A stretch of 48,060 bases of DNA from the NCBI GenBank assembly GCA_902794835.1, contig CADBIO010000002.1:1-48060 (forward strand). The letters are read 5' to 3'. The position numbers and the translations under genes are program-made. The notes under the pieces were generated by a model. That model worked only from the letters and a program-made list of their open reading frames with translations, was not told the DNA's origin and did not search any database. Of this stretch, positions 578 through 44,833 are shown piece after piece; the first letter of the stretch is position 1, and the number at the start of each line of letters is the position of its first letter. This DNA is from an uncultured Erysipelotrichaceae bacterium. GTDB taxonomy: Bacteria; Bacillota_I; Bacilli_A; RFN20; CAG-826.

Positions 578-2137
578 ATGGCAGAAAACATCAAGTTTTA
601 CAAAGACCATTACGATGTGATCATCATTGGCTGTTCGTTAGCTGGCATGAGCGCTGGCATGACTTTGGCCAAAGAAGGCAAATCCGTTTTGATCTTAGAA
701 CGTCACAATTTGCCAGGCGGGCTAGCAACCTCTTTTGTGCGTTCCGGACATGAGATGGAGGCCACCCTCCATGAAATGATGTCCATTGGCAAAGAGGAAG
801 AACGACTCCCTGTCGGTAAATATCTCGACGATATGAAAGTTGCGATCGACTGGCTCCGTGTCCCAGAAGCATTCCGACTCTATGTTCCAACCGACGACAT
901 TGACATTTTGATCCACGCAGGGATTGATTCCGATGGCGTATACGTTGCTGCTAAAGAAATCGAAGAAAAATATCCAGGCAATTTAGAGAAAGTGAACAAG
1001 CTTCTCCATCTTTGCAAAGAGGTCATGGAATCCACCAACTATCTTAATGACCACACCGCCTCAAAAATCGAGCTTCTTAAAAATCACAGCGGATTAGCCA
1101 AAACAGCGGGCTATTCTGCAAAAGAAGTAATGGACGCCTTTGAGATTCCAGAAAAAGTTCAAGCTGTTTTGTCGGCTTATTGGATTTATGTTGGCCAACC
1201 AGTTTCCAGTCTTCCGTTCACGATTTTCGCCTTCTTGTTGGGCGACTATCTGACCGGCGGGTCTTTTGTTGCTAAAAATTTCTCTCATGGCATGTCTGTC
1301 GCGATGGCGGAAAAATGCTTAGAACTCGGTTGCCAAATCGAATATCGCACCGAAGTCACCAAAATCCTTGTCAAAGACGGAAAGGCTTATGGCGTGAGAA
1401 CAGCGCATGGTGAAGAAATTCACGGCCATTACATCATCTCTGGCGTTTATCCTGATGCAGTTTTTGGCCATATGATTGAACCACAAAGCGAAGTTCCTGA
1501 GAAGGCTGTCAAACTCTATCACGGACGCAAAATCGGTGTCACGTGTTTCTCGGTTGTCTTACTTTTAGACCAAACCCCAGAGCAACTCGGCATCAAAGAT
1601 TATTCTATTTTCTCTGGAACCTCCCATTTCGATACCGATGCCTATTGGGCGCAAGGAAGCAAACTCGGTGGCTGGGATTATCTCACCACGATTTGCTTAA
1701 ATTATGCCAACCCAGAACAAATCCCAGAGGGAATGACATCTTTATCGATCACCAATCTGCCACTTCCTGTCGCTTTTGAAGACGTGAAAGCGGACGATTA
1801 TTTTGCCATTAAACGCAAATACGGCAAAGAAATGATCGAATCTATCTCCAAGCTTCTTGGCGTGAACTTGTTAGATCATGTCGTGGAAGTGGAAATTGAA
1901 TCCCCAGCCACGATCTCGCATTATTCCGGCCAATACTTGGGTGGCATTTATGGCTATCAACACAGCATGGACGATGCTATCGCAGCCCGTCTTGAGACTT
2001 ATGGTAAAGAACATTACATCCAGAATTTAACCTGGGCGTCTTCTGCCACATTGGCAGGCGATGGCATGGCTATCAATATCAAGAATGGCCGTATCGCCGC
2101 ACAAGTTGTTGATACTTGGGAAAAGGAGGGCAAATAA
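578..2137 (+). CDS. NAD(P)/FAD-dependent oxidoreductase, phytoene dehydrogenase/CrtI-like (COG1233 type)
   Basis: A 519-residue flavoprotein. Residues 13-48 form the N-terminal dinucleotide-binding unit: a hydrophobic strand, GCSLAG (18-23), helix, then LILE with Glu41 and a PGG turn. The usual GxGxxG is altered, with Ser at the second Gly position. The C-terminus has the family's second FAD motif, a GDGM segment followed by NGRIAAQ near residues 490-506. CrtI-type proteins desaturate, isomerise or saturate C-C bonds. No carotenoid genes are visible, so the substrate is unknown. An AAAGGA sequence precedes the ATG. The gene ends one base before the ATG of the flavin/2Fe-2S reductase, which suggests the two are co-transcribed and may exchange electrons (inference). 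Confidence 0.85.
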   Translation: MAENIKFYKDHYDVIIIGCSLAGMSAGMTLAKEGKSVLILERHNLPGGLATSFVRSGHEMEATLHEMMSIGKEEERLPVGKYLDDMKVAIDWLRVPEAFRLYVPTDDIDILIHAGIDSDGVYVAAKEIEEKYPGNLEKVNKLLHLCKEVMESTNYLNDHTASKIELLKNHSGLAKTAGYSAKEVMDAFEIPEKVQAVLSAYWIYVGQPVSSLPFTIFAFLLGDYLTGGSFVAKNFSHGMSVAMAEKCLELGCQIEYRTEVTKILVKDGKAYGVRTAHGEEIHGHYIISGVYPDAVFGHMIEPQSEVPEKAVKLYHGRKIGVTCFSVVLLLDQTPEQLGIKDYSIFSGTSHFDTDAYWAQGSKLGGWDYLTTICLNYANPEQIPEGMTSLSITNLPLPVAFEDVKADDYFAIKRKYGKEMIESISKLLGVNLLDHVVEVEIESPATISHYSGQYLGGIYGYQHSMDDAIAARLETYGKEHYIQNLTWASSATLAGDGMAINIKNGRIAAQVVDTWEKEGK

Positions 2138-2138
2138 G

Positions 2139-3362
2139 ATGAAAAAATTGAAGATTAAAGGTTTCTTTAAAGACATTACGGGCTCGATGAGAGTTTCTAA
2201 ACGCCGTAATGCTAGCATCAAAAATGCCTCTCCAGTCAACGACTACAAGGACCCAATCAAAGAACTTGCGTTGGAGCTTCACCCGGTCGTGACCCATGTT
2301 ATCGTAAAGAAGGTGGAAGACGTTTCTCCTACCGCCAGAAAATTTACTTTCGTAGCTATCGATGGCGACAAACTTCCTCCTTTTGAGGCGGGACAATACG
2401 TTTCATTGGATTTAGAAATTGACGGCAAGAAAGCCTATCGTCCATATTCAATCTCTTCTGCCCCATTCCAAGCCAGAAGCGGAGAAGAGCCATTCTTTGA
2501 AATCACCGTTCGTAATGGCAGACCGGGACAAGGTTATGTTTCCAGCTACATTTATGCCAACCTGAAAGAAGGCATGAAATTAGAAGCCCATCTCCCTTAT
2601 GGACAATTCCACATCGAGCCATTGCGTGATAGCAAAAACATCGTCGCCTTGGCTGGTGGCAGTGGTATTACGCCATTCTATTCCATGGCGCAAGAGATTG
2701 CCCACGGCACCTTGGATGTTGACCTGACAATCCTTTATGGTTCCGTTTCCCACGATGACATTATCTTGGAAAAACAAATCCAAGCCATCCATTGCCCACG
2801 CGTGAAATTTATCAACGTTATCTCTGGTGAAGGCGCCAAACTCCTCCCAGGTGATGAAAAGGGCTTTATTTCTCGCGACATCATCAAAAAATATTCCGTG
2901 GATCAGGATCCGTCCAATGGCAAAACCACCTATTTCGTGTGCGGACCTCTTCCGATGTATCTCTTCATCAACAAAGAGCTTGAGGCATTGAAAGTCCCAT
3001 ATCGCCGCATTCGCATGGAAGTGTTTGGCTCAACGCCAGATGTGACCAAAAACGAAGGCTACCCAGCAGGAAAAGAAAAAGAAGTCTACAAGATTACCGT
3101 TAAACGCGGCATTCATGAAGACATTATCGACGCCAAGGGATCAGAAACCATCCAAAACGCGATGGAACGCGCGGGAATTCCCCACGAGACCCGTTGCCGT
3201 TCTGGTGCCTGTGGTTGGTGCCGTACTAAAGTCGAGAAAGGCGAATTCTTCGTTCCTTCTGTCGGCGATGGCAGGCGCGCTGCTGATAAGGAATATGGCT
3301 ATGTCCATGCTTGTGCAACCTATCCTCTTTCGGATATGGTGATCAAGATTGAGATTGAATAA
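2139..3362 (+). CDS. Ferredoxin-NAD(P)H reductase-type protein with C-terminal 2Fe-2S ferredoxin domain
   Basis: A 407-residue protein. I place the start at the ATG at 2139, which follows a strong AAGGAGGG site; an in-frame upstream ATG at 2061 lies inside the preceding gene. Order of domains: a basic N-terminal extension, an FAD/FMN domain with RPYS at 101-104, an NAD(P) domain with GGSGITP at 173-179 and a VCGPLP segment, then a plant-type 2Fe-2S domain. The cluster ligands are Cys353, Cys358, Cys361 and Cys392. This order is that of phthalate dioxygenase reductase and HCP reductase families. It probably passes electrons from NAD(P)H through flavin and the cluster to a partner, plausibly one of the upstream flavoproteins (inference). 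A strong terminator follows. Confidence 0.9.
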   Translation: MKKLKIKGFFKDITGSMRVSKRRNASIKNASPVNDYKDPIKELALELHPVVTHVIVKKVEDVSPTARKFTFVAIDGDKLPPFEAGQYVSLDLEIDGKKAYRPYSISSAPFQARSGEEPFFEITVRNGRPGQGYVSSYIYANLKEGMKLEAHLPYGQFHIEPLRDSKNIVALAGGSGITPFYSMAQEIAHGTLDVDLTILYGSVSHDDIILEKQIQAIHCPRVKFINVISGEGAKLLPGDEKGFISRDIIKKYSVDQDPSNGKTTYFVCGPLPMYLFINKELEALKVPYRRIRMEVFGSTPDVTKNEGYPAGKEKEVYKITVKRGIHEDIIDAKGSETIQNAMERAGIPHETRCRSGACGWCRTKVEKGEFFVPSVGDGRRAADKEYGYVHACATYPLSDMVIKIEIE

Positions 3363-3373
3363 CCAACTTTCTT

Positions 3374-3401
3374 AAAAGGCGTCCTTCGGGACGTCTTTTT
3401 T
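3374..3401 (+). terminator. Rho-independent terminator of the redox cluster
   Basis: AAGGCGTCC pairs with GGACGTCTT (one G-T pair) around a TTCG tetraloop, followed by a run of T. Confidence 0.9.
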
Positions 3402-3435
3402 CAATTCAAGGGATGCGTGTATCTGTTTTTTATTT

Positions 3436-4299
3436 TTATGCTTGAATTGGATGATCCCCGTCGTTGATATAGAGGATACCAAGAACGTTTCGTCCTACAT
3501 AACAAGTAACAGTCGCCATCGGATTGGTATGATAGACTTTTTTAAAGCCAACTCCGTAAAGATAATCAGTTAATTCTTGGACTACCTCTTTTGGGATTGC
3601 TGATTCCGTGATGAAAACGACTTCATGATCGGGGTTATTGAATTCTTCTAACGTGGATTTGGCGTAATCCATCACCCATTTGCGGACAGGCCCTTTGAAC
3701 TTTTTATGGGACTCCAGCTTTCCTTCTTCATTCATCACAATCTGAGGGCGAATTTTCAAAAGATTGGCGCCGAAAGCAGCGACACTGGAGCACCTACCGC
3801 TTTTGTGAAGATAGTTCACGTTTTCAAAACAAAAAGTGGTGCATACTTTATGAGATCTTTCTTTCACGATATTTATCACTTCTTCAAAAGGAGTGCCTTT
3901 GTCTAGCAGACGTTTGGCATAAATGGCTAAGGTCGCTTCGCCTGTTGATAAGGAGCGTGTATCGATTATCGCTACTTTTCCTTGGAATTTTTTAGCTCCA
4001 TTTTCAGCGTGTTCATAGGTGCTGGAGATGCCCGAAGAAATCGAGAAATGTATGATTCGGTCATAGTCCTTAAGAAGGGCTTCAAAATAATTCTCATATT
4101 CTTTTGGGTTTAAGGCGGCGGTGCGAGCGACAGTACCCGTTAACTCCATAAATTCACAAATTTCCTTGGAAGTGACTTCGCCGTCGAATTTCATTTGGTC
4201 CCCGACCATAATCGGAAAAGGGATGAAATGGATGTCATATTCTTTCAACAATTCTTGATTCAAATCGATGGTGGATTCTGCACTGATTGCAATTCTCAT
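3436..4299 (-). CDS. DegV family fatty-acid-binding protein
   Basis: A 287-residue protein with the DegV/FakB pattern: an N-terminal strand ending in Ser-Thr-Ile-Asp, the (A)RTAALNP segment near residue 60, the SSGISSTY loop (about 108-115) and the late hydrophobic lid. Family members bind a fatty acid; FakB proteins present it to the FakA kinase for phospholipid synthesis. No fakA is visible here. The ATG follows an AGGAAGGA site and a good promoter at 4324-4352. The gene runs opposite to both neighbours, so it is a single-gene unit. Confidence 0.92.
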   Translation of the reverse strand: MRIAISAESTIDLNQELLKEYDIHFIPFPIMVGDQMKFDGEVTSKEICEFMELTGTVARTAALNPKEYENYFEALLKDYDRIIHFSISSGISSTYEHAENGAKKFQGKVAIIDTRSLSTGEATLAIYAKRLLDKGTPFEEVINIVKERSHKVCTTFCFENVNYLHKSGRCSSVAAFGANLLKIRPQIVMNEEGKLESHKKFKGPVRKWVMDYAKSTLEEFNNPDHEVVFITESAIPKEVVQELTDYLYGVGFKKVYHTNPMATVTCYVGRNVLGILYINDGDHPIQA

Positions 4300-4352: not shown

Positions 4353-4441
4353 ACCTTAAATATCAAGATTTCATCGATAGTTTTTATAACTTCAAGAACT
4401 CGTTATGAAGACGAGGAACGAAATCTTTTTTTGCAAATTAA

Positions 4442-4470
4442 TTGAATGTCCAGGCCTTATGCTTTTTAAT
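4442..4470 (+). promoter_or_regulatory. Sigma-A-type promoter for the ABC exporter gene
   Basis: -35 TTGAAT (4442-4447), 17-base spacer, -10 TTTAAT (4465-4470). It lies about 75 bases before the ATG at 4546, with a palindrome in between. Confidence 0.5.
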
Positions 4471-4491
4471 TTACAAGTCCAAATATTTTAT

Positions 4492-4510
4492 TTTCCCAAA
4501 AATTGGGAAA
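4492..4510 (+). promoter_or_regulatory. Palindrome in the leader of the ABC exporter gene
   Basis: TTTCCCAA and TTGGGAAA form perfect 8-base arms around AAA. It sits downstream of the promoter and upstream of the start, as expected for an operator or a small leader hairpin. No regulator gene is adjacent, so the role is unknown. Confidence 0.4.
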
Positions 4511-4545
4511 TAAAAATAAGCGGAATCAAAAAAGAGGATAAAGGG

Positions 4546-7347
4546 ATGCTGAAACTAGACCACATTACGAAAATTTATCGCACCAAGGATATGCAGGTCG
4601 ATGCATTAAATGATGTTTCCCTTGCTTTCCGCAAAAATGAATTTGTTGCTATTTTGGGTCCTTCTGGATGTGGAAAGACGACGACTTTGAACATCGTTGG
4701 TGGGTTGGATCATTACACCCACGGCGATTTGGTGATCGATGGCGTTTCCACCAAAGATTTCAAAGATCATGATTGGGATGTTTATCGAAATCATAGGGTT
4801 GGATTTGTTTTTCAATCCTATAACTTAATTCCTCACGAAAATATTCAAGAAAACGTCGAATTAGCCCTAACGATTGCAGGTCTTAGCAAAGAAGAACGTT
4901 CCAAAATGGCGAGAGAGGCTTTAGATCGCGTCGGTTTGGCGGGAATGTATGGGAAAAAGCCAAACGAACTTTCTGGTGGTCAATGCCAAAGAGTCGCCAT
5001 CGCCAGAGCTTTGGTAAACAAGCCAGACATCCTTTTGGCAGACGAGCCGACTGGCGCCTTAGATTCTGTCACCTCGGTTCAAATCATGGATCTCATCAAA
5101 GAGATTTCTCAAGAAAAACTGGTCATTATGGTCACCCATAACCCAGACTTGGCCGAGAAGTACGCAAACCGCATCATTAACCTGTTAGATGGCAAAGTGG
5201 TGGGGGACACCAACCCCTATTCTTTTGAAGAGGAGGCCAAAGAGCGTGATGCCGTGACATCAAAATCTGAAGAGCAACTTGCCAAAGAACGGGCAAAGAT
5301 GTCCTGGTGGACCGCATTCAAACTCTCCGCTAAAAACTTGCTTTCCAAGGCCAAACGGACCTCTTTGATTGTTGTCGCCTCTTCTATTGGCATCGTTGGT
5401 GTTTCGGCCGTTCTTGCTGTTTCCCAAGGCGTGACTGGCTATATTGGAGGAATGCAGGATGATATGTTGTCGGGTTATCCGGTGACAGTTGCCGAATCTG
5501 CCTACGATTTGAGTTCGATTCTTTCGGGGACGAATTCTATGGAACAAGTCAATGCCGTCGCTCATTCCTGGAGGGACGGAAAGATCGACGTTCAATTCGT
5601 CACCGAAACTTTGGTGAACGTTTCTGACAGCATGAGTTCGGCTGCCTTGAAAAATGAAATTACGCAAGACTACATTCAATTCGTTGATGACATGCCCAAA
5701 AATTATTACGCCGCACTAGGAAAAGAATATGGCATCAACTTGAAAAACAATCTCTATACTCATTCGGACATTCACTTGAAAGATTACACCGAAGAACAAT
5801 TGAGGACCCAAAAATATTCCATCACCGCGATTACCTCCATCTGCAGCACCATTTTGGAGAACATCAACGATGGAGATTACTCGGCTTATTCTGCGATGGT
5901 GGATCAATATACCGACGCCATCAACCAATGTTTGCCAGAAAAAGAATACGTTCTTTCCCAATATGATGTGGTTTCTGGCAAATATGCCGAAGGTGAAAAC
6001 GAGATGATGATTGTCTTAAACCATCGGAACCAATTGACGGAATTTGTCCTTACTTTACTTGGATATTATGGCCAAGATGAATTCGCGAACGCGATTTATT
6101 ATTACTCTGACCAAAAAGAAAAAATGGATATGGATCTTTGGGAAAAGCAACAATCTTTCACCATTGATCAATTAGTAGGAAAAGAATACACGTATTACCC
6201 CAATAATTCCTTATACACTTATAACAGCAGCTATGATGCAGGCTCAACCACCAACCCTTTGGCGTGGCAGGCATATGATTATGCGTTCGTTGATGATGGT
6301 TCTTTAACCAATGGAGAAAATATGAAGGTCGTAGGAATTCTTGCCCCAAAAGAAGAGGTTTCCTATGGTTGCATGGATTCGGGTCTGTATTTTACCAAAG
6401 CCTTTGCTGAGCACTACCTTGAGCAAAACATGGAATCGGAAGTCACGAAATTCATCAGAGCTTATTGTGAAACCAATCCGGATGCTGATGGATTTACTTC
6501 CGCGGTCATCAATTTCTCCAATCACAAATTTATCTCCGGAATCGGTTTCATTTATGATGTCAACTTCCCAGACGGAATCGGATCTTCCAGCATCCAAACA
6601 TTTGAAGGCGCTGGCTTAATTGGCGAACAAAACGCCTTATCTGGCATCATGAGTTTAATTGGCGGTGGTGGATCAGGCGGTTCTTCCTCAAGCATCCTTC
6701 TACAGAAGATGGCATTATGCACCCTTAGAGATGTCGGTGGGAATTCTCTTCCAGGAACGATTAAGATCTATCCGAAGAGTTTTGCGGATAAATATTTGGT
6801 CACCGATTATTTAGATCGTTGGCAAAGCGAAGAAACCATTACTTTGTCGACGGGAACGGTTTTGACTCCCGACCAACGTAACGACATCAAATATACAGAC
6901 AATCTTGCCATCATCATCGCATTGATTAATGGGGTTATTAATATTGTCACGATCGCCTTGGTTGCATTCACCTCCCTTTCTTTGATTGTTTCCACCGTTA
7001 TGATCGGAATTATCACTTATGTGTCTGTTATGGAACGTGTCAAAGAGATCGGCGTCATTCGTTCTCTGGGTGGAAGAAAGAGGGACGTGTCTCATCTATT
7101 TAACGCAGAGACTTTAATCATCGGATCCCTATCTGGGGTGTTTGGATTAATTGTCACTTATTTATTTGAAATCATTTTGAACGCCACCATAGGGGTTTAT
7201 TATGGCATTGGCATGATTGCCAATCTCAGTTGGTGGACTGCCGTTGTAATTCTTGCGTTAAGCGTTGCCTTAACAATGATTGCCGGCATCATTCCGGCCA
7301 GAGCCGCGGCTAGACAAGACCCTGTTGTAGCGTTACGGACTGAATAA
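4546..7347 (+). CDS. Fused ABC transporter ATP-binding/FtsX-like permease protein (MacB-like type)
   Basis: A 933-residue protein started at the ATG at 4546, after a purine-rich site; an earlier in-frame ATG at 4405 lacks support. Residues 1-230 are an ATPase: Walker A GPSGCGKTT (38-46), signature LSGGQ (142-146), Walker B ILLADEP (162-168) and an H-loop THNP. A linker leads to one membrane segment (about 270-300), an extracellular region of roughly 500 residues rich in Tyr, Ser and Asp, and a C-terminal FtsX block of three membrane segments containing the VMERVKEIG motif. MacB-type exporters act by mechanotransmission on peptides, lipids or lipoproteins. The very large ectodomain is unusual; substrate is unknown. 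A two-component system is not adjacent. Confidence 0.9.
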   Translation: MLKLDHITKIYRTKDMQVDALNDVSLAFRKNEFVAILGPSGCGKTTTLNIVGGLDHYTHGDLVIDGVSTKDFKDHDWDVYRNHRVGFVFQSYNLIPHENIQENVELALTIAGLSKEERSKMAREALDRVGLAGMYGKKPNELSGGQCQRVAIARALVNKPDILLADEPTGALDSVTSVQIMDLIKEISQEKLVIMVTHNPDLAEKYANRIINLLDGKVVGDTNPYSFEEEAKERDAVTSKSEEQLAKERAKMSWWTAFKLSAKNLLSKAKRTSLIVVASSIGIVGVSAVLAVSQGVTGYIGGMQDDMLSGYPVTVAESAYDLSSILSGTNSMEQVNAVAHSWRDGKIDVQFVTETLVNVSDSMSSAALKNEITQDYIQFVDDMPKNYYAALGKEYGINLKNNLYTHSDIHLKDYTEEQLRTQKYSITAITSICSTILENINDGDYSAYSAMVDQYTDAINQCLPEKEYVLSQYDVVSGKYAEGENEMMIVLNHRNQLTEFVLTLLGYYGQDEFANAIYYYSDQKEKMDMDLWEKQQSFTIDQLVGKEYTYYPNNSLYTYNSSYDAGSTTNPLAWQAYDYAFVDDGSLTNGENMKVVGILAPKEEVSYGCMDSGLYFTKAFAEHYLEQNMESEVTKFIRAYCETNPDADGFTSAVINFSNHKFISGIGFIYDVNFPDGIGSSSIQTFEGAGLIGEQNALSGIMSLIGGGGSGGSSSSILLQKMALCTLRDVGGNSLPGTIKIYPKSFADKYLVTDYLDRWQSEETITLSTGTVLTPDQRNDIKYTDNLAIIIALINGVINIVTIALVAFTSLSLIVSTVMIGIITYVSVMERVKEIGVIRSLGGRKRDVSHLFNAETLIIGSLSGVFGLIVTYLFEIILNATIGVYYGIGMIANLSWWTAVVILALSVALTMIAGIIPARAAARQDPVVALRTE

Positions 7348-7365
7348 AATAAAAATGATCGTTTC

Positions 7366-7390
7366 AAAGGCGCCTTATCGCGCCTTTTTT
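7366..7390 (+). terminator. Rho-independent terminator of the ABC exporter gene
   Basis: AAAGGCGC (7366-7373) pairs with GCGCCTTT (7380-7387) around a six-base loop, then T residues. Confidence 0.9.
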
Positions 7391-7403
7391 CATTACGAGA
7401 AAG

Positions 7404-7429
7404 AAAAAAGATGCCATTACGACATCTTT
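7404..7429 (-). terminator. Rho-independent terminator of the small RNA
   Basis: Minus strand: AAAGATGTC pairs with GGCATCTTT (nine pairs, one G-T) around GTAAT, followed by six T. It also stops read-through from the DJ-1 gene. Confidence 0.85.
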
Positions 7430-7553
7430 CGGAAATCAAGGTTTTCCTAGCCCCGTTTAACAAACGCGACGAGGCGAGGACTATATAGGCATATGGCGGA
7501 TCCTAAACTAACCCAACTATCCTTACGGTAGTAAGACCCACTTCTGTTCCTGT
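7404..7553 (-). ncRNA. Putative independent small RNA of about 150 nt
   Basis: On the minus strand a consensus promoter (-35 at 7582-7587, -10 at 7560-7565) points to a start near 7553, and a strong terminator ends at 7404. No credible reading frame lies between. The predicted RNA has several local hairpins: CUUAC/GUAAG, AGGAU/GUCCU, CGUUU/AAACG and GGAAA/UUUCC. GGAA near the 5' end can also pair with UUCC near the 3' end, which would close the molecule. It does not show tmRNA, SRP, RNase P or T-box signature sequences that I recognise. A 6S-like RNA is one possibility and cannot be settled here. It lies just past the DJ-1 gene, which has no terminator of its own. Confidence 0.55.
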
Positions 7554-7559
7554 GCAAAT

Positions 7560-7587
7560 ATTATAATCATTTTTTAATTGAATGCAA
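7560..7587 (-). promoter_or_regulatory. Promoter of the small RNA
   Basis: Minus strand: -35 TTGCAT (7582-7587), 16-base spacer, -10 TATAAT (7560-7565). It starts right after the stop codon of the DJ-1 gene. Confidence 0.65.
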
Positions 7588-7607
7588 GCGGTTTCATCAA
7601 AGTCAAT

Positions 7608-8168
7608 TTATCGCGGGTATTTTGCTCCTCTCGTTCCCGGATAAATCGTTTTGAGTCCTTCCTCCCCTAGAAGGTTTCTTACGATCGCTTCGGCAAACTC
7701 GATCGTGTAATACATTGAATGTCCTGTAATGATGTTTCCATCTACGACCGCCCCCGTTTCCAAATAAGTCCCTTTTCCGCATTGGAAGCCGGGGAAACAG
7801 GTGTATTTCTTGCCATCTAAATAACCTAATTCCCCTAAAATTGAAGGACCAGCACAAATGGCAAAAATCTTTTTCCCCTCGTTATGGAATTTTTTGATGG
7901 CTTCCATAGCGAGGCTTGATTTCTTGATGTTTTCCACTCCTAATTTACCACCAGGAATCACCAAAAAATCATAAGACCCAAAATCTGGCATATCTCCTAA
8001 AAGGCCCTGAGAGATCATTTCCAATCCCATAGAGGAAATGACATTCAAATGATCTGAAATGGAGAGGTACGTGACATCAATTTCATGGGTTCTTGTCAAA
8101 ATATCATGGGTGCCGATGGCTTCGGTTTCTTCGAACCCATCTGCCAATAACATTAATCCTTTGATCAT
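7608..8168 (-). CDS. DJ-1/PfpI family protein
   Basis: A 186-residue single-domain protein of the DJ-1/ThiJ/PfpI family. The Gly-Phe-Glu-Glu motif (11-14) supplies the conserved glutamate near the active site. The nucleophile elbow AICAG carries Cys105, the reactive cysteine of the family. IPGG (71-74) is the conserved turn. Members act in glyoxal or oxidative stress defence or as small-molecule amidases; the precise activity cannot be told. The ATG follows AAGGGAGA. It lies 20 bases after the stop of the secreted nuclease gene on the same strand, so the two may share a transcript. Confidence 0.92.
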   Translation of the reverse strand: MIKGLMLLADGFEETEAIGTHDILTRTHEIDVTYLSISDHLNVISSMGLEMISQGLLGDMPDFGSYDFLVIPGGKLGVENIKKSSLAMEAIKKFHNEGKKIFAICAGPSILGELGYLDGKKYTCFPGFQCGKGTYLETGAVVDGNIITGHSMYYTIEFAEAIVRNLLGEEGLKTIYPGTRGAKYPR

Positions 8169-9157: not shown

Positions 9158-10507
<1,350 letters not shown>

Positions 10508-10514
10508 TTAGGTT

Positions 10515-10549
10515 TTAAACATGCTTACAAAGTAAGCGACTAGATTATA
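10515..10549 (-). promoter_or_regulatory. Enolase -10 box and leader dyad
   Basis: Minus strand -10 TATAAT at 10544-10549, about 55 bases before the eno start. Just inside the leader, GCTTAC and GTAAGC form a six-base inverted repeat around three bases. No good -35 is visible. Confidence 0.4.
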
Positions 10550-10610
10550 GAGCAATTTCTCCATTGACGGCACGAGAAATGATTAATTAACGATTTATCG
10601 ATATTATTTG

Positions 10611-10616
10611 TATAAT
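10611..10616 (+). promoter_or_regulatory. -10 box for the glycan-region membrane protein gene
   Basis: TATAAT on the plus strand, 26 bases before the ATG at 10643; a GAAGGAG Shine-Dalgarno site lies between. The -35 is weak. Confidence 0.45.
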
Positions 10617-10642
10617 AAAAAGACGAGAAGGAGACGGACAAA

Positions 10643-12082
10643 ATGACCAAAACAAAAATCTCGACGAAACAGCTTTTGATTTGGGTCGCTTTAGCTGCCA
10701 TTGCCTTTACGGCATTTGGGTTCGGCGGGACACGTGGCGTTTCTTTTGCTTCTGCGCTGATCTTTGTGCTGGGCGTTTTCATGTTCCTTGGCAAGAAAGA
10801 AAAGATGGCCAAAGGGGACAAGAAATCCTTTTTCATATGGGTGCTGCCCTTCGCAGTTTTTGTATTGTTGATTTCTTTTGGGCGTTTTTGGAGTACGTAT
10901 CATTACGATGCGGGAGCAGGGTCGATCCGTTGGTTTTCCTATTTTATCGCGGCGTTGTTTAATGTTCTTGGCGTTGTTGGCTATGCCATGGTCGGTCATT
11001 GTTTGTCGTTGGGAGAAAACTCGGAAGGCAAAACAAAAGAGAGACTTTTCGAAGTCATCTTGTGTGCTCTTGCCTTGCACGTTCTCATCAATTTGATTAT
11101 CACACTGGCTAATTATGGCCCGTTCTATCGAACGCTTTATGCGGGCAAGAGCTATTATTATGGTTCTGTTGAATACCCTGTCGCCAACGAAAGAATGATT
11201 TTGGACGGTTTTACTATCGCTACCGTTTCCACGCAGTATGGGGACATTTCTTCTTTTTTGCTTGCGGCAACTCTCCCATCCTTGCTTTTTATCTCTTTAA
11301 AAGAAAATAAAATTGGTTTCTCCATCGCCGCCGTTAGTGGAGGCATCGGTTTGTTGGATTTAGTCTTGATGCCAAATCATTTGGCTTTATTGCTTTTGAT
11401 CCCTGTTTTTTCGATTGCCGTTTTCGTTCGTTTTGTGAAAACAGGGATAAAAACCCCTTTGTGGGAAAAGATTGTTGGCTTTGCTATGCTGGCAATGGTC
11501 GCGATTGTGGTCTTCTTGATGATCGGTGTGGCTGCAAATGGTAATAACAACTATGGCCCATTAAGCAAAATTTTTAATAATGGCAGACTGACTCAACCGA
11601 TCAATCAAATCATCAACGCAGTCTTCAAAAACAACTATGCTTGGAATTGGAAAAGCATTTTCTTTGGCATGAACGTTTATTCCGGCTATAGTCCATTGTC
11701 TTTGAAAACTAGTTTTTGGATGCAGACAGAAATCACTTGGGTCAACATCAACCTTCACACTTTCGAATTTGTGGCGCTGATGGAAGGCGGATTTATCGCG
11801 TTTATTGCCCTTTGCCTATTTATGGCCAGCCTTTTCCCGATGTTCCGAAATCATTTGAGGAGAGAAGAAAAGGCAAATCCTTGGGTATTAATCAGCGCGG
11901 TTTTTGTCCTCGGCTATTTCTTATATCAAAGCCTTTTGTTCACAATGTTCCCTTATATTTATGATGTTGGTCTTTATGTGAGTGCATTTTCATCCAATGC
12001 GTTCTTCTATTTGACCGTTTTGCTTATCTTTTTCTCTTATCGGAAAATCTATTCCTTAAAAAAGAAAGGGGGCGTAGCATGA
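10643..12082 (+). CDS. Polytopic membrane protein, O-antigen ligase/polymerase-like
   Basis: A 479-residue protein with about ten hydrophobic segments spread over its length and short loops, and one larger extracellular-type loop near residues 160-190 and another at about 300-370. The arrangement, with a segment carrying Pro-Asn-His before a membrane helix, resembles the Wzy/WaaL (O-antigen ligase-like) superfamily, which joins or polymerises lipid-linked glycans. No single decisive motif is seen, so the family is tentative. The start has a good GAAGGAG site. Its stop overlaps the start of a lipoprotein gene by four bases, and glycosyltransferase genes lie just beyond. Confidence 0.5.
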   Translation: MTKTKISTKQLLIWVALAAIAFTAFGFGGTRGVSFASALIFVLGVFMFLGKKEKMAKGDKKSFFIWVLPFAVFVLLISFGRFWSTYHYDAGAGSIRWFSYFIAALFNVLGVVGYAMVGHCLSLGENSEGKTKERLFEVILCALALHVLINLIITLANYGPFYRTLYAGKSYYYGSVEYPVANERMILDGFTIATVSTQYGDISSFLLAATLPSLLFISLKENKIGFSIAAVSGGIGLLDLVLMPNHLALLLLIPVFSIAVFVRFVKTGIKTPLWEKIVGFAMLAMVAIVVFLMIGVAANGNNNYGPLSKIFNNGRLTQPINQIINAVFKNNYAWNWKSIFFGMNVYSGYSPLSLKTSFWMQTEITWVNINLHTFEFVALMEGGFIAFIALCLFMASLFPMFRNHLRREEKANPWVLISAVFVLGYFLYQSLLFTMFPYIYDVGLYVSAFSSNAFFYLTVLLIFFSYRKIYSLKKKGGVA

Positions 12083-13392
12083 AAATCAAGGTTTGTAGCA
12101 CAGCTATTTGCGTCTTGCTTCTGGCAAGTTGCGTGAAAACCAACGAACTTTATGATCGGGGACAATACATTGATGGAGCTGATTTCACGAAGATTTTCTA
12201 CACCGATCACGACCCTTTGTCTTCGCTAAGTATTAGCAAAGAATCTTCTGTTTCCTTAGATGCCTCTCAATACTGCAACGGAACTCGTGGACTATCTACA
12301 AAAACAAATAAGACGGGGTCGATTGATTTTACCCCAATGCAGATGAGTGTATCTGTTTCTCAAACGAAAGCGTTAGATGGCACCTTATCGTTGGATGTGA
12401 CCATCCCCAAATTAAACCCCTATGGGAGTAACTTGCCTGTTTCCATCCTCCTAGGAAAGACCTACGAGGGCAAATATGCCATTTCCTCCTCTAAGGGAGC
12501 TGACTTTAACGTCCAATCCTATTCTTTTGAAGTGACTGACGATGATATTGTTGACGTCACAATGGATGGCGCCAAATTTACCTTTAGTCCGAGCAAAATC
12601 GGCGAAACGACATTGACTTTGAAGGCCAATGTAACCGTGTCTGGAACCGATTATGAGCTTCAAACTTCAATCCAATTTACTTTTGCCAACCCATACGGAA
12701 CAAGAACTGGCTATTCCGAGAGATATCCCGAGGTTTTCTCTTATCAAGGATCTTACTTAAGCGCAGACCCGTCCGATGATTGGAATCTTTCTTATGCCAA
12801 AACCAACAACGACTCCTCCTTTATCGGAAAAAGCTTTGGGCGAAGCAAATGTTTGGCAACAACCGACGAATCATTTAAATCCGGCTATCTTTCAAAAATC
12901 TACGACGGACAAATGTATTGTGAGGGTTACCATTCCCGCGCTCTGGTGGCGTTAGACCAGAACGGCTACTCGGCCTTCTTCCCCAAAACACTCGACACTG
13001 GAGATTATTTCCTGATGTCGTTCCGGGGCGGATCGAATGACGATACTGGGAGCAATCATAATGCTGGCTCGCCACGGATCTCTTCTTTTGATCTTTCATT
13101 GGACTTTTATTACCGAGATTCTGAAGGTTATCGCAAGGTTACCGTCGTTTCTGACGATGTCATTGTCGAGACTGACAACGGCGGCGAGGGGTGCACCTTC
13201 TTTGGATTCAAATTCTCGGAAATTGGGGTCGATCCAAAAGGAATTCTTGGCATGGGCCTGCGATATAACGATTTCCAAGATCCTCAATATGCATTCGCGT
13301 CTGAAGAGACTTGCAATCAAAAAGAACCGAAACAATATTCTTGGGGCCTTTTGGTCTATGAACTGATGTTCCCGGATTCAACCTGGAAATAG
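12079..13392 (+). CDS. Lipoprotein of unknown function
   Basis: A 437-residue protein. The N-terminal signal ends in a clear lipobox, LLASC, with Cys18. The rest is rich in Ser, Thr, Asp and aromatic residues and looks beta-rich. Residues about 100-220 read like an immunoglobulin-like or cadherin-like sandwich domain, with repeated VSGTD and TLTLKANVT-like strands. The C-terminal half could be a carbohydrate-binding jelly roll, judging only from composition. It overlaps the upstream membrane protein gene by four bases, so the pair is probably co-translated and may work together at the cell surface. It ends three bases from a convergent gene with no terminator between. Confidence 0.7.
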   Translation: MKIKVCSTAICVLLLASCVKTNELYDRGQYIDGADFTKIFYTDHDPLSSLSISKESSVSLDASQYCNGTRGLSTKTNKTGSIDFTPMQMSVSVSQTKALDGTLSLDVTIPKLNPYGSNLPVSILLGKTYEGKYAISSSKGADFNVQSYSFEVTDDDIVDVTMDGAKFTFSPSKIGETTLTLKANVTVSGTDYELQTSIQFTFANPYGTRTGYSERYPEVFSYQGSYLSADPSDDWNLSYAKTNNDSSFIGKSFGRSKCLATTDESFKSGYLSKIYDGQMYCEGYHSRALVALDQNGYSAFFPKTLDTGDYFLMSFRGGSNDDTGSNHNAGSPRISSFDLSLDFYYRDSEGYRKVTVVSDDVIVETDNGGEGCTFFGFKFSEIGVDPKGILGMGLRYNDFQDPQYAFASEETCNQKEPKQYSWGLLVYELMFPDSTWK

Positions 13393-23001: not shown

Positions 23002-24384
23002 ATGCAAGAGAAAGCCATCAGCATTCGCAACCTTTATGAATTAAGCGAAGACCAATTGAAACAATTAAAGACCGTCACCGTCGTAGGATGGGTGAAAAAC
23101 AACCGCAATTCAGGCAAGGTCGGTTTCATCGCGCTTCATGATGGGACCTGCTTCAAAAACCTGCAAGTCGTTTATGATGCCGACAAACCTTTCTTTAACG
23201 ATGTTTCCCGCTATAAGATGGGATCGGCCGTTCGTTTTGTTGGCGAATTGGTGCTGACGCCTGGCATGAAACAGCCATTCGAAGTTCACGCCACCGAGGC
23301 GGTTCTTTTGGGTGATGTGGCAGATGATTATCCTTTGCAGAAAAAGAAAACCTCCTTTGAATATCTCCGCGACTTAGCTTATTTACGTCCTAGGACCAAC
23401 ACCTTTGATGCCGTATTCAGAGTCCGTTCTGTTTTGGCAATGGGGGTTCACACTTTCTTCCAAAATAATGGTTTCGTCTATGTCCATACGCCAGAAATCA
23501 CCGGCAACGATGCGGAAGGCGCAGGATCTGTTTTCACTGTCATCACTGATTCCAAAGAAGATCCAATCAATGACTTTTATGGCAGGCGTGCCTCTTTGAC
23601 TGTCTCTGGACAACTTCACGTTGAAGCGTTCGCCTTAGCCTTCAAAGATGTTTATACCTTTGGACCGACTTTCCGTGCCGAAAAATCCAACACCCCGAGA
23701 CACGCTTCTGAATTCTGGATGATAGAGCCAGAACTTGCTTTTGCCGATTTGGACGACGATATGGATTGCATCGAAAGTTGCATTAAATTCCTGATCCAAT
23801 GGGTAATGGACAAATGTCCTGATGAGATGGATTTCTTCGATCGTTGGATTGCTCCGGGCGTTAAAGACAAACTCAATCATGTATTGAATAGCCCATTTAG
23901 AAGAATGGAATATACCGAAGGGATCAAAATTCTCCAAGAAGCCGTCAAAAATGGGCATAAATTCGAAAACAACAACATCGAATGGGGCATGGACTTACAA
24001 AGTGAGCATGAACGCTATCTCACGGAAGAATATGTTAAAGGTCCAACTTTCTTAATGAATTATCCTAAGGAAATCAAAGCCTTCTATATGAGAGAAAACG
24101 ATGATGGGAAAACCGTTGCCGCGGTTGATTTGCTAGTGCCTGGAGAAGGAGAGATTGTCGGTGGTTCTCAACGTGAGGAACGATATGACATCCTGAAGGC
24201 CAAAATGGACAAAATCGGCAACACGGAGGGCCTCGAATGGTATCTTAACCTTCGTAAATACGGTGGCTGTATCCATTCCGGGTTTGGTATTGGTTTCGAT
24301 CGTCTTCTGATGTATATCACTGGCATTGCCAACATTCGTGATACCGAGCCTTACCCAAGAACCTCTTCTGCGTTAAAGTATTAA
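23002..24384 (+). CDS. asnS: Asparaginyl-tRNA synthetase
   Basis: A 460-residue class IIb aminoacyl-tRNA synthetase. Residues 1-110 are the OB-fold anticodon-binding domain (VVGWVKNNRNSGKVGFIALHDGT). The catalytic domain has motif 2, FRAEKSNTPRHASEFWMIEPE, and motif 3, GFGIGFDRLLMYITG. The AsnRS-type FRAEKSNTPRH and absence of the AspRS insertion support Asn rather than Asp. The ATG follows AAAGGAGA. No T-box leader fits in the 45-base gap before it. AsnRS presence means Asn-tRNA can be made directly. Confidence 0.97.
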   Translation: MQEKAISIRNLYELSEDQLKQLKTVTVVGWVKNNRNSGKVGFIALHDGTCFKNLQVVYDADKPFFNDVSRYKMGSAVRFVGELVLTPGMKQPFEVHATEAVLLGDVADDYPLQKKKTSFEYLRDLAYLRPRTNTFDAVFRVRSVLAMGVHTFFQNNGFVYVHTPEITGNDAEGAGSVFTVITDSKEDPINDFYGRRASLTVSGQLHVEAFALAFKDVYTFGPTFRAEKSNTPRHASEFWMIEPELAFADLDDDMDCIESCIKFLIQWVMDKCPDEMDFFDRWIAPGVKDKLNHVLNSPFRRMEYTEGIKILQEAVKNGHKFENNNIEWGMDLQSEHERYLTEEYVKGPTFLMNYPKEIKAFYMRENDDGKTVAAVDLLVPGEGEIVGGSQREERYDILKAKMDKIGNTEGLEWYLNLRKYGGCIHSGFGIGFDRLLMYITGIANIRDTEPYPRTSSALKY

Positions 24385-44757: not shown

Positions 44758-44833
44758 GGGACATTAGCTCAGCTGGGAGAGCGCCTCGTTCGCAACGAGG
44801 AGGTCGACGGTTCGATCCCGTTATGTTCCACCA
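44758..44833 (+). tRNA. tRNA-Ala (anticodon CGC)
   Basis: 76 bases fold into a full cloverleaf: acceptor GGGACAT/ATGTTCC, D stem GCTC/GAGC, anticodon stem CCTCG/CGAGG with loop TTCGCAA, T stem GACGG/CCGTT, discriminator A and an encoded CCA. The anticodon CGC reads the codon GCG. G3-U70 in the acceptor is the alanine identity pair. It lies at the edge of what looks like an accessory region. A terminator hairpin follows at 44912-44937. Confidence 0.97.

Follow-up and report, generated by a model that had tools for sequence, protein, structure and literature searches.

A predicted small RNA gene with a conserved fold in a small clade of uncultured Erysipelotrichaceae

The intrinsically terminated, trans-acting small RNAs (sRNAs) of the Bacillota have a sigma-70-type promoter, a length of 100-200 nt, several hairpins and a U-tract terminator. 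The RNA described here, predicted on the minus strand at 7404-7587 of a 48,060-base stretch of DNA from an uncultured Erysipelotrichaceae bacterium (the window is this whole stretch), has the promoter type, size, hairpins and U-tract terminator in common with them, but it differs in that a long structured 5' domain is conserved rather than a short seed, and in that no match was found at the family level. It resembles 6S RNA (RF00013) as a stand-alone small RNA of similar length, but lacks a long closing stem, a central bubble and any sequence match. RNAs of the CsrB/CsrC type (such as RF00084) share with it a hairpin loop bearing GGA; however, a single GGA opens a loop here, and CsrA was not found in 37 genomes of the genus. 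STnc40 (RF02057) gave a sub-threshold match near the RNA (28.3 bits versus a cut-off of 45), but on the opposite strand, over the end of the neighboring ABC transporter gene and its terminator. In the full-text literature, as far as search results reveal its content, nothing on this RNA came up; the reports listed dealt with large ornate RNAs and with CASP16 predictions.

A sequence-only reading of the window had proposed a small RNA, matched to no family, that has a promoter and a terminator of its own. Our analysis supports this proposal, since homologues of the predicted transcript in two other species of the same genus (G014 and G033, uncultured Erysipelotrichaceae by their GenBank titles; the genome of the window is G000) have retained the promoter, the form of the terminator and a fold that shows compensatory changes. 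At gathering score, the sole Rfam 15 match in the whole window was a tRNA at 44758-44830, and none fell on the RNA. When the threshold was relaxed to E<=10 in the region 7300-7700, matches appeared on the plus strand only, at the end of the ABC gene; STnc40 and isrK were rejected as identities because their matches lie on that other strand. The weak STnc40 match covers a terminator-like hairpin of the ABC gene at 7366-7387 (plus strand). In the loci of the relatives (L002 and L003), four weak matches were found at this threshold, all in L003, none of them overlapping the RNA at 1455-1601 and none to 6S. Most likely, we are dealing with a family not matched in Rfam 15 and of a known general kind, that of the lineage-specific stand-alone sRNAs. 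It would add an unlisted small RNA family from an uncultured lineage, and it illustrates that a fold absent from Rfam can be established by comparing species within one genus.

Promoter, predicted transcript and terminator

The promoter elements named in the earlier reading were confirmed on the minus strand: a -35-like hexamer, TTGCAT, at 7587-7582 and a -10 hexamer, TATAAT, at 7565-7560. The former sits within a 9-base block, CTTGCATTC, identical in all three copies of the RNA gene, and the latter reads TATATT in G014 and G033; the spacer between the hexamers is 16 bases long in the window and 17 in both relatives. TTGCAT followed by TATAAT at a distance of 15 to 18 bases occurs once in the 48,060 bases, against 0.05 occurrences expected from shuffles. 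The pair does not appear in a stricter consensus scan, because TTGCAT fits only three of the six bases of TTGACA.

From the -10 site and the terminal T run, a transcript of about 152 bases (7555-7404) is predicted. It would end at an intrinsic terminator at 7430-7404, with its stem at 7430-7406 and its T run at 7409-7404. Six T had been noted before, correctly, together with a stem of nine pairs, for which the fold gives 10, two of them wobble pairs. The terminator hairpin is far more stable than its shuffles (z -4.6 in the window and z -3.4 in G014, with 0 of 200 shuffles as low in either), and in G014 and G033 the terminators have the same form with a stem sequence unlike that of the window. 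Both promoter and terminator are thus kept in the relatives, as is expected of a stand-alone sRNA. A riboswitch, leader or attenuator acting in cis was rejected for the window and for G014, as the next gene past the terminator is convergent in both. The interval had also been described as non-coding, which holds insofar as no ORF of at least 60 aa lies wholly within 7404-7587; however, an 87-codon ORF starts at 7463 and continues antisense to the ABC gene, and a 12-codon frame with a GTG start is present as well.

Homologues and fold of the RNA

A blastn search of 61 genomes returned eight with E<=0.01, the genome of the window included, and only G014 and G033 among the others span the RNA (80% identity; E 7.0e-26 and 5.9e-26). 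The remaining five matches are pieces of 19-25 bases, and the four that were inspected sit in unlike sequence, the piece in G028 just before a tRNA-like sequence; among the 37 genomes of the genus, the four matches are the same three and this G028 piece. A covariance model of the RNA core built from the three copies (R1) scored 128-144 bits in 3 of the 37 genus genomes and no more than 18.3 bits elsewhere (E<=1). The weak matches in G000:C51, G007:C2 and G014:C7 (16.4-18.3 bits, E 0.2-0.6 per genome) were judged from their alignments to be due to chance. With stricter filters, under which at most 13 (order) or 9 (class) candidates per genome were scored among the matches listed, R1 detected the RNA in three of the order's 279 genomes (E<=0.1) and, of 395 genomes drawn evenly from the class (E<=0.01), in one, that of the window.

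An exact pattern scan over the contigs of 84,980 species gave three stretches, namely those of the uncultured Erysipelotrichaceae MAGs RUG13722 and RUG13633, whose prefix we take to denote rumen genomes, and one unrelated; a pattern match in Sulfurimonadaceae (L023) was discarded, with no R1 match at E<=10. Allowing two mismatches in a 13-base pattern yielded 37 matches, compared with 55 for the reversed control. Neither blastn against 50,697 phage and 72,556 plasmid records nor the exact pattern in viral contigs gave a match, and on these searches a phage or plasmid origin was rejected. Diverged copies were sought in 46 ABC/DJ-1 loci reaching 1,500 bases to each side of the match. Of the other 34 species of the genus, 29 supplied 41 of these loci, and the rest came from G000, G014 and G033. 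With default filters, only two matches beyond the copy of the window were obtained (10.5-11.1 bits, both in L073); with the filters off, 25 of the 41 other-species loci gave 11 matches at E<=5, the best of 13.6 bits and E 0.21, and no copy was recognised. Among the genomes searched, the RNA has a narrow distribution.

Conservation between the window and G014 is uneven along the locus. Identity is highest in the 62 bases from 7551 that make up the 5' domain (56 of 62), lower in the next part up to the end of hairpin P3 (36/53) and in the promoter part, the 50 bases before the 5' domain (34/53), and each of these values lies above all 300 shuffled controls. The upstream flank (17/43, matched by 222 of 300 shuffles) and the 3' end with the terminator (19/43, matched by 201 of 300) stand at the shuffled level, indicating that sequence is not conserved there. 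The cores of G014 and G033 are identical, so the three copies represent just two independent lineages and part of the conservation may reflect recency.

When folded separately, the three copies give one plan, with small differences within P2 and P3: a short stem P1, an AACAGAA loop, hairpins P2 and P3, and the terminator hairpin, in agreement with the several hairpins anticipated from the sequence. The predicted 5' domain (7551-7487) consists of P1, the interior loop AACAGAA/CAUAUG and P2. A closing stem had been thought possible, and P1 is indeed one, of three pairs (7549-7551 with 7487-7489; the outer pair is A-U here and C-G in the relatives), but it encloses the 5' domain and not the whole RNA. 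P2 pairs 7523-7541 with 7496-7516 around the loop GGAUAG; 16 of its 18 pairs are invariant, and it contains one C-G to G-C change and one G-U to A-U. P3 (7480-7445, pairing 7470-7480 with 7445-7455) contains two compensatory pairs and two pairs each broken in one lineage.

In the window, the stability of the whole transcript exceeds that of its shuffles only mildly (z -1.78; 10 of 200 as low). Tested against 200 shuffles each, the 5' domain gave z -1.18 in the window (27/200 as low) and z -2.4 in G014, and P3 gave z -2.4 and z -1.6, respectively. As single-sequence stability is weak in the window, the support for the fold comes from the comparison. RNAalifold on the two distinct rows recovered P1 and P2 as named and P3 minus its two mismatched pairs, plus an inner stem of two pairs within the P3 loop, with a consensus energy of -32.0 kcal/mol against -16.1 kcal/mol (sd 3.1; z -5.1) for column shuffles that do not keep dinucleotides, 0 of 1000 of which were as low. 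Among the 32 pairs compared, four are compensatory, one is changed on one side and two are broken in one lineage. Random placement of the 12 substitutions would give at least four compensatory pairs with P of about 1e-4 (0.0017 for P1 and P2 alone, 0.04 for P3 alone); in a letter-shuffle control, a weak one with two rows, 30 of 500 shuffles did as well. Retention of promoter, terminator and hairpins in relatives had been named in advance as one test of the small RNA, and all three are kept in G014 and G033, with these four compensatory pairs.

The bases UGUU in the P3 loop (7459-7462) and AACA in the interior loop (7545-7548) are both invariant and could pair in a pseudoknot between the two loops. 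The inner P3 stem given by RNAalifold uses two of the UGUU bases and would compete with it.

Possible modes of action

The comparison within the genus shows a conserved locus with a conserved predicted fold, promoter and terminator form. We consider it very probable that 7404-7587 on the minus strand is a genuine small RNA gene; we infer its transcription from the promoter and terminator sequences, and the RNA probably acts in trans. The explanation that we tentatively favor is a stand-alone trans-acting RNA of about 152 nt whose 5' domain works through protein binding or a tertiary fold. Such an RNA would be transcribed from its own promoter, ended at its intrinsic terminator and passed down within one small clade of a genus that is uncultured. 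Its working part would be the nearly invariant 5' domain with P1, the AACAGAA loop and the GGAUAG-capped P2, which would most likely bind a protein or make a tertiary fold with the P3 loop, while P3 and the terminator would supply spacing, stability and the end of transcription. That a rigid domain has remained almost unchanged suggests recognition of shape, by a protein or by a tertiary contact, and the number of fixed P2 pairs is more than a short pairing seed would need. It is rather unlikely that we face a new structured class, in which P1, the AACAGAA loop and P2 would be compact with the P3 loop by way of the AACA-UGUU pseudoknot and form a protein- or ligand-binding regulator distinct from 6S.

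The main rival is an sRNA that acts by base pairing, the commonest mode of stand-alone bacterial sRNAs, with a seed in GCCUCGUCGC of P3, in CUUGA before the terminator or in GGAUAG of P2, and a fold that protects or presents the seed. This is possible, if doubtful: GCCUCGUCGC and CUUGA are invariant within an otherwise variable 3' half, but conservation is highest in a long double-stranded domain. Duplex scores computed for start regions of the window and for three orthologous gene starts pointed to no conserved target, a weak test in which pairing spanned the whole RNA. A short-peptide or dual-function gene appears improbable. The 12-codon GTG frame, preceded by AGGA or CGGA, encodes VGLTTVRIVGLV in G000 and VDLTSVRIVGLV in G014 and is open to its stop in both genomes; as there is no gap in the 5' domain, conservation of the frame is automatic and does not support a peptide. 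Of the three changes, two alter the encoded residue and two jointly make up one compensatory pair, and the GTG start is located in the P2 stem. That the locus is an unexpressed, decayed or fortuitous promoter-terminator pair, as the weak -35 might suggest, we hold to be highly unlikely, since the locus is conserved with compensatory changes and its terminator has retained its form though not its sequence. Scarcely credible is a CsrB-like RNA whose GGA-bearing hairpin loops would sequester CsrA. A GGA does open the P2 loop in both lineages, but the transcripts hold just four GGA in G000 and five in each relative instead of many GGA-bearing loops, and the partner CsrA (PF02599) was found in none of the 37 genus genomes, with controls positive in 3 of 14; such a role would call for a CsrA-like protein that escapes recognition.

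Just as unlikely as an unexpressed locus is a polymerase-binding 6S RNA, be it a second or a diverged one. The sequence-only reading had entertained the 6S type, which has in its favor the stand-alone promoter and terminator and a length that, at about 150 nt, comes close to that of the 6S matches in relatives (156-168 nt). The idea was not borne out: the RNA has no match to RF00013 at E<=10, and the fold of the three copies is no rod, having neither a long closing stem nor a central bubble. The Rfam 6S model found none in G000 (controls positive in 5 of 14), and across the 37 genus genomes it gave sub-threshold matches in four, three full-length and one partial, and none above the cut-off. 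These four (L075-L078) have UGUUGAA and GAAUCCU in common, and each of the three that are full-length has a long closing stem in its fold. A model of the 6S core built from them (R2) matched 7 of the 37 genomes at E<=0.1, namely its four sources and exactly G000, G033 and G014, away from the RNA in each case: G000:C20:20917-21024 (L083, minus strand, E 3.6e-4, with 109 of 338 first-look candidates scored in this genome), G033:C60:4191-4309 (L084, plus strand, E 0.013) and G014:C7:13733-13850 (L085, minus strand, E 0.018). At E<=10, the sole R2 match in the window and the two relatives' loci was at 23608-23729 (11.1 bits), and none fell on the RNA. The three new 6S candidates keep CCUACA, UGUUGAAAGC, GAAUCCUAA and a closing stem; as they are missing from the matches of the Rfam model even at E<=5, we grade them as candidates and not as 6S proper. 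Candidates below or outside the Rfam model suggest that 6S is undercounted in such lineages.

Gene order around the RNA gene

In the window, an ABC transporter/FtsX permease gene (4405-7347, plus strand) is convergent with the RNA gene beyond the RNA terminator, and its terminator-like hairpin lies just past that terminator. The other flank is occupied by a DJ-1/PfpI gene (7608-8168, minus strand), followed by genes for endonuclease I and enolase. The G014 RNA lies on the minus strand at about L026 8815-8962, between a related ABC gene (1466-4261, plus strand) and the DJ-1 (10471-11049) and enolase (11110-12441) genes, both on the minus strand, so that order and orientation are as in the window. 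Additional ORFs are present in G014, three on the ABC side (989, 215 and 263 aa) and, on the DJ-1 side, one for a 428-aa protein with a tyrosine phosphatase domain; the endonuclease gene is absent. The 263-aa ORF lies beyond the RNA terminator and is convergent, like the ABC gene in the window.

The ABC protein of the window is 65% identical to that of G033 and 64% to that of G014 (C-terminal 315 aa), compared with at most 56% for other species. The DJ-1 protein shows 59% identity to those of G014 and G033 and up to 69% to other species of the genus; as it is closer to these than to the two species that share the RNA, unlike the ABC protein, its gene may have another history. In G033, the RNA sits on a contig of 3,763 bases, with the ABC and DJ-1 genes on other contigs. 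A same-strand ORF of 223 aa, not common to the window or G014, starts at 3198, 267 bases past the terminator. Both ends of this contig (G033:C167) carry an 84-base repeat with copies 92% alike (L027 167-250 and 3657-3740). One copy begins 9 bases upstream of the -35 hexamer of the RNA (3643-3648), which may point to the insertion of a mobile element next to the promoter.
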